A stretch of DNA of 64,000 nt from Microcaldota archaeon (lineage in GTDB: Archaea > Micrarchaeota > Micrarchaeia > Norongarragalinales > Norongarragalinaceae), in NCBI GenBank assembly GCA_016207165.1, contig JACQQD010000009.1, positions 62,001 through 126,000 on the forward strand, given 5' to 3'. Shown here one piece after another: positions 5,865 to 38,090 of this stretch (positions within the stretch are counted from its first letter, which is position 1; each line of letters opens with the position of its first letter). The notes below the pieces were generated by a model. The model worked only from the letters and a program-made list of their open reading frames with translations. It did not search any database and was not told where the DNA came from. Position numbers and translations under genes: made by a program.

Positions 5865-6419
5865 GTGTCTTTAGAAAAAACCATTGCGCGCATTGACGGG
5901 GAATTGTCGGAAAAGGAAAAGCGCCAGGACGTCGTTTTGGCGGATTCGCGGGTCGTGATTCGAAACTGCGCGAAAGCGATCCGGCACCTTCATACGGGCG
6001 ACATGGCGGAGGCCAAGAAAGTCGTCAAGGCGTTGGACGCCGACGTGGCGGCTTTGAAAAAAGTGGCCCAGGACTTTGAGCACATTGCTTCCAGCGCGTA
6101 CCAGGAGTACGTGGAAATCAAGTGCCTGCTTTCGTTGTTGGAGAAAAAAGAGCTTCCGACTCCTGGTGACCTCAAGGTGGATGACCAGAGTTATTTGGCG
6201 GGGTTGGCGGACTGCGTGGGAGAGCTTCGGCGGTCGCTTCAATTGGCGCTGAAGGCCGGAAAGAAAAAAGACGCGGATTACTTGTTTGGAAAAATGAATT
6301 ACATTTACGACCATTTGATGTTGCTGAAGTACTCCAGTTCCCTGGTGGGGCCCTTGAAGCGGAAGCAGGACATGATTCGAAGCCAAGTCGAACAAGCGCG
6401 AAGCGAGCTCTTGCGATAG
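5865..6419 (+). CDS. Translin family protein
   Basis: 184 aa helical protein, RQDVVLADSRVVIRNCAKAIRHLHTGD...YLFGKMNYIYDHLMLLKYS; GTG start. Confidence 0.75.
   Translation: MSLEKTIARIDGELSEKEKRQDVVLADSRVVIRNCAKAIRHLHTGDMAEAKKVVKALDADVAALKKVAQDFEHIASSAYQEYVEIKCLLSLLEKKELPTPGDLKVDDQSYLAGLADCVGELRRSLQLALKAGKKKDADYLFGKMNYIYDHLMLLKYSSSLVGPLKRKQDMIRSQVEQARSELLR
6369..6419 (+). repeat. Direct repeat copy 1: in-frame 3' end of the translin gene
   Basis: 51 nt gacatgattcgaagccaagtcgaacaagcgcgaagcgagctcttgcgatag; 49/51 identical to 6498-6548. Confidence 0.95.
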
Positions 6420-6497
6420 GAATTTGATTCGCGCGCAAGTCGGGGGTTCGGGGAAGCGTAGGACTATAGGGGGCGGAGCCCCCTGTGGTCCGGCAAC
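6420..6497. repeat. 78-nt GC-rich spacer with strong hairpin between duplicated translin 3' ends
   Basis: Contains ggactatagggggc-gga-gccccctgtggtcc (14-bp stem including two G:U pairs). Confidence 0.8.
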
Positions 6498-6548
6498 GAC
6501 ATGATTCGAAGCCAAGTCGAACAAGCGCGAAGCGAGCTTTTGCGTTAG
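6498..6548 (+). repeat. Direct repeat copy 2: untranslated copy of the translin 3' end including stop codon
   Basis: gacatgattcgaagccaagtcgaacaagcgcgaagcgagcttttgcgttag; encodes the same DMIRSQVEQARSELLR* with two synonymous changes. Confidence 0.95.
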
Positions 6549-31494: not shown

Positions 31495-34347
31495 GTGATG
31501 GCCATGCAACCCCAAGAAATTTCTCCCGGTATCTTCGAATTTGCGGCGGAAGGCAAAATGAATGTGCCCGTTCGGCTGGTGGCCCAGCCCCACATGCTTT
31601 CGCACGTCATGTCCGACCGGACGTTGAGCCAAGCCAAGAACGTGGCCACGCTTCCCGGACTCTTGGAGGCGTCGTTTGTCATGCCGGACGCCCACGAAGG
31701 CTACGGGTTTCCCATCGGCGGCGTGGCCGCTTTTGACGCGGAAGAGGGCGTTGTTTCTCCTGGCGGAATTGGTTATGACGTGAATTGCTTGGATCCGGGC
31801 AGCCGAATTTTGACGGAGTTTGGCTCCGTGAAAACGATTGGGTCACTTGAATCAACGTTTGCCGATACCGATGTCTCGGGCGCGTATTCACTTTCGCTTC
31901 AAAAACAGGGCGGACGTCTTGCATCTTTGGATGGCTCAGCGCTCACTTCCCAAGCGTTGTTGGCGGTGATGAAGAAACCGGCTGACAAGAAAATGTTGAA
32001 AGTCACAACGAAAACGGGCAAAGAACTCATTTGCTCGGAGGACCATCCTTTGCGATTGGGTACTTCTCTTAAACCGGCTGGACAACTGCGCGTCGGTGAT
32101 TCGCTTTCAGTCAAGTACTTTGAAGGCGTCGACCACGAGCCGATTGAGAAGGAAGAACATACCGCGCTACTGGCCAGGATTCTCGGATACTTCTTTGGCG
32201 ACGGGACGTTGTGCTTTTGCGGAAAAAAACTGCGTGCCGCGGCCTACGGTAAAAAGGAAGACATGGATCAGTTGGCCGAGGACATTTCACGTCTGGGTTT
32301 TCATCCTCGAGTGATTACTCGCACGAGAAATCACGTGATTTCAAGCCGATACGGCGTGAAGACGTTTACCGGAACCACCAGTGAAGTCTACGTGTCTCAA
32401 AACGCGTTTTGCGAAATGCTTAGAATTGCGGGAATGCCGGTCGGAAACAAGTCGTTCTCAGAATATTACGTTCCGCAATGGATCATGGATTCGCCGCGCT
32501 GGATTCAACGGCTTTTCCTGTCTGGATTTTTTGGCGCCGAACTTTCCTCACCCCGAACGCACACAAAAACCGGTTTTGACATGCCTGTTTTAAGCATGAA
32601 CAAAAATGAACTGTACAAAGCCAATGCACGATTTTTTCTCATTCAGGTCATGCGGTTGTTGGAAGGCTTTGGCGTGCAAACAAGCAAGATTTCCGAACGG
32701 TTCGAAGACAACAACCGGAAAGGACCCGTTATCCGGTTGCGTCTGCTGATTTCCGGTGATGAGCAAAACCTAATCACTTTGTGGACGAAAGTTGGCTTCT
32801 CGTATAACCATGAGAAACAACAATTAGCAGAAATTGCCTGCCGGTACATCCTCTTAAAGCGAACGGCGAACAGGCAACGTGTTCAAGCCAATGCCCAAAT
32901 CCAATCGTACAAATGCAAAGGATTAACGTTGGGTGAGATTCAGAAGAGTCTGTCACCATCCGGCTTAACTTCTGGATTTGTTGAGAAGTGCTTCCAGAAA
33001 AACACGCCCAAGCGAATTCCACTTGATTTCATTTCATTTGAGGACTTCAAACGCCGCGCATTTCTTGAGTTATCCGCTTTCGGCGCGTTGCAGGACCCGG
33101 TAGAATCCATTCAAGAAATTCTTTACCAGGGAGACGTTTACGACATCACCGTTGCAAAAACACATAATTTCATTGCCAACGGCATCTTCGTGTCCAATTG
33201 CGGCGTTCGCCTGCTTCGCACCAATTTGGCGTTCGACGAAGTCAGACCCGAGTTGGGTGCCTTGACGGATGCCTTGTTCCGAAACGTCCCGGCTGGGGTG
33301 GGAACCTTAAGCAAGGTGCGTTTCACGCCCAAGGAATTAGAGGATTTTGCGGTGCACGGCCTGGATCACGCCATTGATCAGGGCTTTGGCGTGGCGGAAG
33401 ACAAGGCGCACTGCGAGGAAAACGGCGTTTTTCGGGAAGCGGATTATTCCAAGGTGTCGGATTTGGCCAAGAAACGCGGGGCCCCGCAGTTGGGGACCTT
33501 GGGCTCCGGCAACCACTTCCTGGAAATCCAGCGTGTCGAAAAAGTTTTTGACGCCGAGAAAGCCAGGGCCTTCGGTTTGGAGCAAGGCCAAGTCACCGTC
33601 ATGATTCACTCCGGTTCGCGGGGCTTCGGCCACCAGATTTGCGACGATAACATCCGCGTCATGCTTCGCGCCGCAGAGAAGTACGGCATTTTTTTGCCGG
33701 ACCGCGAATTGTGTTGCGCGCCGCTTTCATCCCCGGAGGCGCAAGACTATCTGGGGGCCATGCGGTGTGCCGGCAATTACGCGTTCTGCAACCGCCAGTT
33801 CATGACGCATTGGGTGCGTGAAACGCTTTCCGAGGTATTCCGCAAAGACTGGAGGGACTTGGGCGTGGAACTGGTGTACGACGTGTGCCACAACATCGCC
33901 AAATTCGAAAAGCACGACGTCCAAGGCCAGATGCGGGAGGTCTGCGTACACCGCAAAGGCGCCACGCGCGCGTTCTGGAAGGGCCGCTCCGAAATTCCGT
34001 CGGCCTACCGGGCCGTGGGCCAGCCCGTCATCATTCCGGGATCCATGAACACGTCGTCGTACGTGTTGGGTGGCTTGCCGGGCGCGTCCAAGACTTTCGG
34101 CTCGTCTTGCCACGGCGCCGGTCGGAGAATGTCTCGGCATGCCGCCATTGAACGATTCGATAGCCGCCAAATCGAGGCGGAAATGAAGGCCAAAGGGCAA
34201 TTCATCCGCGCCACCAAACCCAGGCTTTTAAGCGAAGAAGCCGGTGGAGCCTACAAGGACGTCGACGACGTCGTGGGCGCGGTTCAGAACGCCAGCATTT
34301 CAAACATCGTCGCCAAAATGGTTCCGCTTGGAATTGTCAAGGGTTAG
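31495..34347 (+). CDS. rtcB: RtcB tRNA-splicing RNA ligase precursor, interrupted by an intein
   Basis: Extein MPDAHEGYGFPIGGVAAFD, SPGGIGYDVN/CGVRLLRTN, GTLGSGNHFLEIQ, HSGSRGFGHQI, GSMNTSSYVL. Confidence 0.96.
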   Translation: MMAMQPQEISPGIFEFAAEGKMNVPVRLVAQPHMLSHVMSDRTLSQAKNVATLPGLLEASFVMPDAHEGYGFPIGGVAAFDAEEGVVSPGGIGYDVNCLDPGSRILTEFGSVKTIGSLESTFADTDVSGAYSLSLQKQGGRLASLDGSALTSQALLAVMKKPADKKMLKVTTKTGKELICSEDHPLRLGTSLKPAGQLRVGDSLSVKYFEGVDHEPIEKEEHTALLARILGYFFGDGTLCFCGKKLRAAAYGKKEDMDQLAEDISRLGFHPRVITRTRNHVISSRYGVKTFTGTTSEVYVSQNAFCEMLRIAGMPVGNKSFSEYYVPQWIMDSPRWIQRLFLSGFFGAELSSPRTHTKTGFDMPVLSMNKNELYKANARFFLIQVMRLLEGFGVQTSKISERFEDNNRKGPVIRLRLLISGDEQNLITLWTKVGFSYNHEKQQLAEIACRYILLKRTANRQRVQANAQIQSYKCKGLTLGEIQKSLSPSGLTSGFVEKCFQKNTPKRIPLDFISFEDFKRRAFLELSAFGALQDPVESIQEILYQGDVYDITVAKTHNFIANGIFVSNCGVRLLRTNLAFDEVRPELGALTDALFRNVPAGVGTLSKVRFTPKELEDFAVHGLDHAIDQGFGVAEDKAHCEENGVFREADYSKVSDLAKKRGAPQLGTLGSGNHFLEIQRVEKVFDAEKARAFGLEQGQVTVMIHSGSRGFGHQICDDNIRVMLRAAEKYGIFLPDRELCCAPLSSPEAQDYLGAMRCAGNYAFCNRQFMTHWVRETLSEVFRKDWRDLGVELVYDVCHNIAKFEKHDVQGQMREVCVHRKGATRAFWKGRSEIPSAYRAVGQPVIIPGSMNTSSYVLGGLPGASKTFGSSCHGAGRRMSRHAAIERFDSRQIEAEMKAKGQFIRATKPRLLSEEAGGAYKDVDDVVGAVQNASISNIVAKMVPLGIVKG
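31786..33198 (+). other. Intein (471 aa) in RtcB with LAGLIDADG-type homing endonuclease domain
   Basis: Starts CLDPGSRILTEFGSVKTIGSL, ends VYDITVAKTHNFIANGIFVSN before Cys+1; LARILGYFFGDGTL and IQRLFLSGFFGAE motifs; in frame both sides. Confidence 0.95.
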
Positions 34348-35871: not shown

Positions 35872-35913
35872 TCACTGGACGATGTGGTCCAGGGGTTGCA
35901 TGCGGTAGTTTTC
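35872..35913 (-). repeat. Direct repeat: untranslated copy of the 3' end of the glnA-linked Lrp gene
   Basis: Reverse strand gaaaactaccgcatgcaacccctggaccacatcgtccagtga = ENYRMQPLDHIVQ*; matches 35970-36011. Confidence 0.95.
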
Positions 35914-35969
35914 GCTTGGTCGCCCCGGGGAACCCAGGTTCCCCTGGCCCGCCCTGGGCCTCGCCCCTC
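35914..35969. repeat. 56-nt GC-rich element with two hairpins between duplicated Lrp 3' ends
   Basis: ccggggaacc-ca-ggttcccctgg and ggccc-gccct-gggcc. Confidence 0.85.
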
Positions 35970-36449
35970 CTATTGGACGATGTGGTCCAGGGGTTGCATG
36001 CGGTAGTTTTCTTTGATGACGTTGAGAACGACTTGCGTGTTGGAGCGCTCCACGTTGTCCAGTTTCAGGATTCTCTTGACGATGCGCGACAAGTCGCCTC
36101 GGTGCTTTACTCGGACAATGACCAGCGAATCCGCATCCCCGGTCACGTCGTAGACGGAAACGACTTCCGGAATCTTGGCGATTTCCTTCTGCACGCTCAA
36201 AAGCGCGCCCTTGTGGATGGTCACGCGAATGATGCCCATCAAGTCGTATCCCAGCGCCGGGTAATTCAAGTCCACGCCGAATCCCTGGATGATGCCTTTT
36301 TCTTCCAAGTGCTTGATGTGCTGGATGACGCTGGCCGGCGAGACCCCCAGCGTTGAGGCGATGGATCGGAAGGACTGGCGGCTGTTGGCCTTTAGTTCCA
36401 CCAGGATGCGTTCATCCAGCGGTCTTTTCTCATTCAGTTTTGCCTTCAT
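35970..36449 (-). CDS. Lrp/AsnC family transcriptional regulator
   Basis: DERILVELKANSRQSFRSIASTLGVSPASVIQHIKHLEEKGIIQGFGVDLNY HTH; divergent from glnA. Confidence 0.92.
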   Translation of the reverse strand: MKAKLNEKRPLDERILVELKANSRQSFRSIASTLGVSPASVIQHIKHLEEKGIIQGFGVDLNYPALGYDLMGIIRVTIHKGALLSVQKEIAKIPEVVSVYDVTGDADSLVIVRVKHRGDLSRIVKRILKLDNVERSNTQVVLNVIKENYRMQPLDHIVQ

Positions 36450-36585: not shown

Positions 36586-38025
36586 ATGAGCAAACAGGTG
36601 TTCGTGGAAGTGCCTAAACCGCAGGCGGGAATCGACGTCTTGTCCCGCATGAAGGAAGAACGCATTTCGTGGGTGGACTTGCAGTTCGTGGACCTGGTTG
36701 GCGCGCTTCAGCACATCAGCGTTCCGGCGCACACCCTGGACGAAAAAGACTTTGAAATCGGTGTCGGGAAGCTGGACGGCTCGTCGATCAAGGGTTTCAA
36801 GGAAATTTTTGAATCCGACATGCTTCTGTTGCCCATTGCCGAGACGTACCGCAAGATTCCGTGGGAACAGGATACGGCTAGAATTTTTTGTGGCGTCAAG
36901 GAAGTCTCCGGCTCCCGTTTTTCCAAGGACTCGCGGCATACGGCCGAGAACGCGGAAAAAGTGTTGGCTCAGAACGGGTTTGACACCAGTTACTGGGGTC
37001 CGGAAGCCGAGTTTTTCGTTTTCGACGAGGTGCACTACGACACGACGAACCCCCATCGGGGCCAAGGCTATTCCGTGGGCTCCATTGAGGCCGCGTGGAA
37101 TCCCACCGGAAAAGGGTACCCCATTGGGTTCAAGGGCGGCTATTACCCGGTGCCGCCGGCGGACACGTTGCAGGACCTCCGCCGCCGCATTTCCGACTCC
37201 CTGCAGAATGATTTCGGCATCCGGGTGGAAGCACACCACCACGAGGTCGCCACGGCCGGCCAATGCGAGATCAACATGCGGTTTGACAAGCTCACCTGCA
37301 TGGCCGACAATTTGTTGACGTTCAAGTACGTGGTGAAAAACCTGGCATACCAATCCGGCAAGATTGCCACGTTCATGCCCAAACCCATGTTCGGCGACAA
37401 CGGAAGTGGGATGCACACCAACCAAAGCATGTGGAACGCCGGCAGGAACCAATTCTACGACGCCAACGAGACGTACGCGCAATTGTCGCAGAACGCCATT
37501 TACTACATCGGCGGCCTCGTCGAGCACGGCCGCTCGCTGGCGGCGTTCTGCAATCCCACGACGAACTCGTACCGGAGACTGGTTCCCGGATACGAGGCGC
37601 CCGTGTACTTGGCGTACTCCAAGAGCAACCGGTCGGCATGCATCCGCATTCCGTACTACTTCTCCAACGAAGTCTCCAAACGCTTGGAGTACCGGGCCCC
37701 CGACCCCACGGCCAACCCGTATCTGGCGTTTGCGGCACTGGCGGCCGCGGGCTTGGACGGCATTAAGAAGAAAATCATGCCTCCCGCGCCTGTGGACGCC
37801 AACATTTACCACATGACGGTGGCGGAGCGCCGCCAGCACGGCATCAAGGAACTGCCTGGCGCCTTATTGGAGTCGCTGCACGAATTGGAGTCGGACCGCG
37901 ACTTTTTGAAGCCGATTTTCGCGGACGACTTGGTGGATTCGTACTTGACGCTCAAGTACGCGGAAGCCAACGCCGTTGGAACCCGGCCGCACCCGTATGA
38001 GTTTGACTTGTACTTGAACTCGTAA
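36586..38025 (+). CDS. glnA: Glutamine synthetase, type I
   Basis: DGSSIKGF, WGPEAEFFVFDE, MPKPMFGDNGSGMHTNQSMW, RIPYYFSNEVSKRLEYRAPDPTANPYLAFAALAAAGLDGI. Confidence 0.97.
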   Translation: MSKQVFVEVPKPQAGIDVLSRMKEERISWVDLQFVDLVGALQHISVPAHTLDEKDFEIGVGKLDGSSIKGFKEIFESDMLLLPIAETYRKIPWEQDTARIFCGVKEVSGSRFSKDSRHTAENAEKVLAQNGFDTSYWGPEAEFFVFDEVHYDTTNPHRGQGYSVGSIEAAWNPTGKGYPIGFKGGYYPVPPADTLQDLRRRISDSLQNDFGIRVEAHHHEVATAGQCEINMRFDKLTCMADNLLTFKYVVKNLAYQSGKIATFMPKPMFGDNGSGMHTNQSMWNAGRNQFYDANETYAQLSQNAIYYIGGLVEHGRSLAAFCNPTTNSYRRLVPGYEAPVYLAYSKSNRSACIRIPYYFSNEVSKRLEYRAPDPTANPYLAFAALAAAGLDGIKKKIMPPAPVDANIYHMTVAERRQHGIKELPGALLESLHELESDRDFLKPIFADDLVDSYLTLKYAEANAVGTRPHPYEFDLYLNS

Positions 38026-38090
38026 GCCCCGGGGGAAAGCGTTCCCCCTGGCGCTTACTCCGCCTCGCCCCCTTCGGTTGGGCGTGGCGG
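38023..38090 (+). repeat. GC-rich double-hairpin element directly at the glnA stop codon, similar to the element at 35914-35969
   Basis: taagccccgggggaa-agcg-ttccccctggcgctta then ccgcctcgcccccttcggttgggcgtggcgg. Confidence 0.75.

Follow-up and report, generated by a model that had tools for sequence, protein, structure and literature searches.

A family of short structured elements that probably replace the ends of conserved genes in Micrarchaeota

Introduction

Integrative elements that enter a gene and restore it with an end of their own have been described. Prophage e14 inserts into icd behind codon 362, and a 165-bp segment bearing 12 changes remains beyond the far end of the prophage (PMC11148124); islands at dusA supply a new 5' end to the gene (PMC4482086). 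In yeast, WHO elements produce arrays of repeated gene ends by homing (PMC7282813). Here, a 64,000-nucleotide stretch of an archaeal genome (the window) was found to contain repeated gene ends around short hairpin elements that carry no gene, and these elements were traced through the genomes of relatives.

Results

An Lrp/AsnC regulator gene in the window carries its 3' end twice. As noted in the preliminary description, the last 42 nt of the gene recur 98 nt downstream (minus strand, 36011-35970 versus 35913-35872; 39 of 42 positions identical), two hairpins lie between the copies (35960-35946 and 35944-35927), and the reading frame is intact, the changes being synonymous (CAA TAG versus CAG TGA, same protein). 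The copy at 36011-35970 reads GAAAACTACCGCATGCAACCCCTGGACCACATCGTCCAATAG, that at 35913-35872 is the same except for CAG TGA in place of CAA TAG, and both translate to ENYRMQPLDHIVQ followed by a stop. The exact part of the repeat is 38 nt at a spacing of 98 nt, far above chance in 64 kb. The features of this locus and of two other sites in the window are as follows.

35970..36449, minus strand: Lrp/AsnC regulator gene, adjoining glnA, intact (open reading frame; PF01037, E=1.1e-16; PF13412)
35970..36011, minus strand: Lrp copy L, functional gene end (...CAA TAG), apparently element-borne (repeat alignment; Lrp end of genome G001)
35918..35970, minus strand: structured core of type A (GGAGGGGCGAGG..GGGGCGACC), 53 nt (match to covariance model R1, 71.3 bits, C9:97918-97970)
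35946..35960, minus strand: hairpin 1 of the Lrp core, GGCCC-AGGGC-GGGCC (covariation)
35927..35944, minus strand: hairpin 2 of the Lrp core, GGGGAACC-TG-GGTTCCCC (covariation)
35918..35922, minus strand: terminal pentamer CGACC, which meets host DNA (boundary alignment, loop pairing)
35914..35917, minus strand: Lrp junction AAG+C, one extra base after three that belong to the gene and read AAA in the intact copy (like signature at about 20 other sites)
35872..35913, minus strand: Lrp copy R, apparently the displaced former gene end (...CAG TGA) (repeat; comparison with G001)
6003..6419, plus strand: translin gene, with copy L at 6369-6419 (PF01997, E=6.2e-8)
6420..6497, plus strand: second element, core of type B, junction CAA+C versus CAG (own copies in the genome)
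6498..6548, plus strand: copy R, apparently the displaced translin gene end (repeat)
38022..38074, minus strand: core of the subtype ending CTTAC, adjoining glnA, no duplication (R1 match, 50 bits)

The translin copies (6369-6419 and 6498-6548) are identical at 49 of 51 positions and encode the same protein. The Lrp and translin cases had been thought to mirror each other independently; the pattern is indeed the same, but they are not independent accidents, as both spacers belong to dispersed element families, the translin spacer representing another core type (B) that has copies of its own. A minority of cores adjoin a gene end directly without a repeat, exemplified in the window by glnA, which obtains its TAA stop from the core at 38022..38074. 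Elsewhere in the window, an RtcB-like reading frame of 950 aa (31495-34347, plus strand) looks intein-interrupted (motifs ...DVNCLDPGSR... and ...HNFIANGIFVSNCGVRL).

The Lrp spacer matches five other places in its own genome, a Micrarchaeota MAG of 1.27 Mb (G000). With covariance model R1, built from five core copies, 13 copies were counted in G000 (E<0.01), and four genomes of the same family hold 59 further cores (27 in G001, 9 in G002, 21 in G008 and 2 in G006), giving at least 70 copies over five genomes, of which G000, G001, G002 and G008 are the heavy carriers. R1 cores were absent from 55 other relatives. A pattern scan of GTDB genomes identified the carriers as groundwater Candidatus Micrarchaeota; two matches to a 24-base pattern outside Micrarchaeota (L111, L114) were taken as chance. 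An unbiased scan for direct repeats flanking a spacer returned ten matches in 464 kb of G000 plus the window, most of the gene-end kind and five with strongly folding spacers, and also brought up a third core type (C), while 736 kb of six other Micrarchaeota genomes yielded none with a strongly folding spacer. Three integrase-bearing Micrarchaeota likewise showed no gene-end repeats over the parts scanned (200 kb of G043, 113 kb of G033 and 120 kb of G016). The core matched no family among the Rfam covariance models. A viral source was rejected, as no IMG/VR contig matched any of three core patterns exactly. Thus, the Lrp case is not solitary, since dozens of gene ends are repeated around cores, and its hairpin region is a conserved, dispersed structured element rather than unrelated local sequence.

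The core has the layout GAGGGGGCGAGG[hairpin 1]A[hairpin 2]GGGGCGACC. Copy R, which corresponds to the gene from an internal point X onwards, begins at most a few bases beyond the core; in the opposite direction the core is bordered by a short linker, then copy L, then the gene body. About 60 cores are located at the 3' or 5' end of a tRNA or protein gene, with that end repeated across the core. The earlier placement of the repeat at gene 3' ends holds for Lrp and translin but is too narrow, as cores also occur at gene 5' ends and in tRNA genes. The 3' targets include Lrp, translin, S10, UPF0147 and ATP-citrate lyase, the 5' targets include ATP synthase D, ThiI and a glutamine amidotransferase, and in tRNA genes 3' parts starting in the T-loop are repeated. 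The flanking repeats measure 19-95 nt with a median identity of 91%, and their median score of 55 compares with 27 for the 99% level of the null.

Some variants of this layout were observed. Five tRNA units (L024, L025, L057, L078, L053) have two outward-facing cores, B or C inverted and then A, which are separated by the linker TTTGATTCGCG and resemble a left and a right end. In G008, many cores (L069-L075, L083) have an extra hairpin within hairpin 1.

Standard pairs make up 92.3% of the paired cells in 83 distinct cores. The covariation score was 0.327 on an alignment fitted to the model, which somewhat inflates it; shuffles gave 0.144 and slid controls no more than 0.089. Wobble pairs are one-sided (38 GU versus 5 AC), which points to the core strand as the functional single strand, either RNA or single-stranded DNA. 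Moreover, the last five bases of the core pair fully with the loop of hairpin 1 in 20 of the 26 cores that do not end in CGACC (shuffle mean 5, maximum 12), and this loop-end pairing holds over several different sequences. Cores of the CGACC type have one mismatch in most copies; the Lrp core is of this kind, its loop pairing partly with the terminal pentamer in the manner seen in other subtypes.

A complementary loop and terminal pentamer would suit a non-autonomous relative of IS200/IS605, with single-stranded hairpin ends, an internal guide pairing with the cleavage pentamer and an HUH enzyme as mover. The pairing itself is observed, recognition through it being putative, and the outward-facing core pairs at several tRNA loci agree with such an arrangement. 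Against it, Y1_Tnp (PF01797) is absent from all four heavy carriers, although this and the other enzyme absences are soft because the genomes are drafts (71-90% complete). Moreover, an IS605 insertion does not carry in a gene end. We therefore consider kinship with IS200/IS605 rather improbable.

When the core is taken to end with the terminal pentamer, the native sequence at X follows the motif RNNGARAW. Of 41 protein sites, 31 have A at position 4 and 35 have A or T at position 6, with information contents of 0.75 and 0.50, respectively, versus 0.39 for the 99.9% level of shuffles; the motif emerged on this pentamer alignment, which was revised once, an earlier boundary placement having given little. 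The tRNA T-loop sequence GTTCRAAT is an instance of RNNGARAW. The motif is weak and one-sided, unlike a typical two-armed tyrosine-recombinase site. Most protein sites lack GTT at positions 0-2, where the R box GTTRRRY of attC/attI was sought. At about 20 sites, including both window cases, one or two extra bases follow the first 2-4 bases of copy R; these may derive from the element's own junction.

These junctions also bear on homing without an integrase, in which a site-specific or RNA-guided nuclease would cut the empty gene and the occupied allele of a relative would be copied in with its gene end; the core could then be a guide RNA scaffold and the displaced end the guide. Loop-end pairing is reminiscent of the TnpB guide RNA, which we take as a lead only. 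The +1 insertions 2-4 nt from the core resemble end-joining scars, the wobble bias points to one functional single strand, and the anatomy and arrays are the same as those of the WHO elements at FBA1 (PMC7282813). However, a guide derived from copy R would be ruined by the +1 insertion, a common short motif argues for protein recognition, the units have no nuclease gene, and TnpB is absent from G000 and G001, making homing of this sort unlikely.

The Lrp gene end had been described as duplicated, but the repeat probably did not arise by duplication in place: the copy adjoining the gene body was apparently brought in by the element, and the far copy appears to be the displaced native end. This direction of replacement is drawn from an empty site and an array. 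In G001, the Lrp gene has no element and ends in ...GTG CAG TGA, as copy R does. The array L055 represents two serial insertions, and its middle copy is unbroken from the newer insertion point through the older one, which indicates that the middle copy had been the working end. Furthermore, codon differences between L and R in 28 genes, picked for frame confidence and with frames chosen by codon usage, comprise 89 synonymous and 18 nonsynonymous changes. L/R pairs often share only 76-90% of their DNA sequence while the protein is nearly always the same, and in UPF0147 all of the 17 codons that differ are synonymous. Since such mostly synonymous differences are unlike those of a freely drifting relic, copy R must have served as a working end until recently. 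The same counts ruled out target-site duplication, which would make copies identical at birth and leave the relic free to decay.

Slippage or a long target-site duplication around a palindrome or terminator would produce the repeats locally, and some pairs are 100% identical (38 nt in L023, 43 nt in L032 and 49 nt in L088). In other pairs the divergence reaches 24%, almost entirely synonymous, with a relic that was recently functional, and related cores stand at unrelated genes with an insertion motif in common; local duplication is thus hardly credible. The polarity could also be reversed, the gene-joined end being native and the core and far copy a foreign insert placed downstream. Divergence is symmetric between the two sides, and the crossed serine codons of UPF0147 in G000 and G001 fit either polarity. 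Yet the near copy's stop codons run into the core (CAATAGGAGGGG, CAGTAGGAGGGG, GCGTGAGGGGG), the far copy opens with the target motif, which is internal to the gene, and the native stop context in G001 agrees with the far copy, so that a reversed polarity seems highly improbable. The UPF0147 3' end is targeted in two species (L020, L038), with the serine codons crossed (AGC/TCT) as if the native end of each species were the insert of the other.

Discussion

An apparently element-supplied end with a displaced native end, together with a common recognition sequence, was found at these loci, as in gene-end-replacing integrative elements, and the cores very probably belong to a family of mobile units that replace gene ends. 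On the evidence of draft MAGs, we lean towards gene-less miniature integrative elements that are probably moved in trans by a tyrosine recombinase, while the identity of the mover as such an enzyme, considered by itself, is an evenly balanced judgement. The mobile unit would consist of a recoded gene end, a linker of 0-50 nt and a hairpin core of about 50-110 nt, in total about 100-200 bases. A circle whose junction reads core|NNN(x)GARAW..gene end might recombine with NNN^GARAW.. inside the host gene, giving native NNN with the element-borne end and stop, then the core, then the displaced native end. Insertion well inside a gene would survive only if the unit supplies the missing end. Aberrant excision, of the sort by which a phage acquires adjoining DNA, may be how units gain gene ends; their transfer to other strains or species would account for the divergence between L and R.

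The recombinase would be encoded elsewhere in the genome and act in trans; no unit is large enough for an integrase gene. Of six enzyme families searched, only PF00589 is common to all four heavy carriers, as proteins of about 400 aa that are 56-63% identical; TnpB, Y1 transposase, IS110, reverse transcriptase (RVT) and serine recombinase (Resolvase) were each absent from at least two of them and were rejected as the common enzyme. A PF00589 integrase is insufficient, however, because relatives without cores carry the same integrase family, and double-stranded DNA closed into a circle of 100-200 bp would be very stiff, which counts against the integrase model. Longer autonomous versions were sought and rejected: the integrase loci are without flanking type-A cores or gene-end repeats, and no tested integrase was core-linked. 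The core was also rejected as a provirus att site, as the provirus of L119 uses a 15-nt tRNA repeat adjoining an earlier-placed core. This provirus (L119 4885-16697, G000:C1) lies in an intron-containing tRNA gene and encodes an integrase, a serine recombinase, an AAA ATPase and unnamed genes; a related provirus-like cluster (L121 5877-13938, G001:C1) lies near a tRNA gene whose 3' end has a core.

If this reading holds, these are to our knowledge the smallest integrative elements that repair the gene they enter. Dozens of conserved genes carry a cassette (Lrp, translin, ribosomal protein S10, ATP synthase D, ThiI, tRNAs), and each end swap would leave a record in the genome, as the gene keeps working and the old end remains as a relic. 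Through such elements, short synonymous stretches of core genes could pass from one species to another, raising the question of which enzyme moves a gene-less unit of about 100-200 bp. A literature search with most subscription journals outside it returned no description of such elements, which is weak evidence of novelty. That they form a mobile-element class of their own, with a structured single-stranded core and an internal guide, mobilised in trans, replacing conserved gene ends and ferrying recoded ends between species, is a tentative proposal that we consider less likely than not.

The cassettes share features with several known systems. In e14 at icd and the dusA islands, as here, a slightly different element-borne end restores the gene at its 3' or 5' end and the old end lies on the far side, but those elements are prophages or islands described with one target gene, whereas the cassettes are about 100-200 bp long, carry no genes and use a single core family at dozens of targets in each genome. 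Archaeal tyrosine integrases in tRNA genes (reviewed in PMC8371274) resemble them in the tRNA targets, the insertion point at the loop edge and the restored tRNA; the cassettes differ in having no integrase gene and in occupying protein-gene ends as commonly as tRNAs. WHO at FBA1 likewise shows repeated 3' gene fragments, arrays and an element downstream of the gene (PMC7282813), yet WHO elements carry an endonuclease gene and mostly have one target, while the cassettes are too short for such a gene and their host is archaeal. Hairpin ends and an internal guide complementary to the end are common to the cassettes, IS200/IS605 elements and REP sequences, from which the cassettes are set apart by the gene-end cargo, no Y1 transposase having been found. 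Finally, integron cassettes, known also from archaeal integrons (PMC9668308), are small units with arrays and a structured end site, as here, but the gene-end cassettes are scattered over the genome instead of being gathered in one array.
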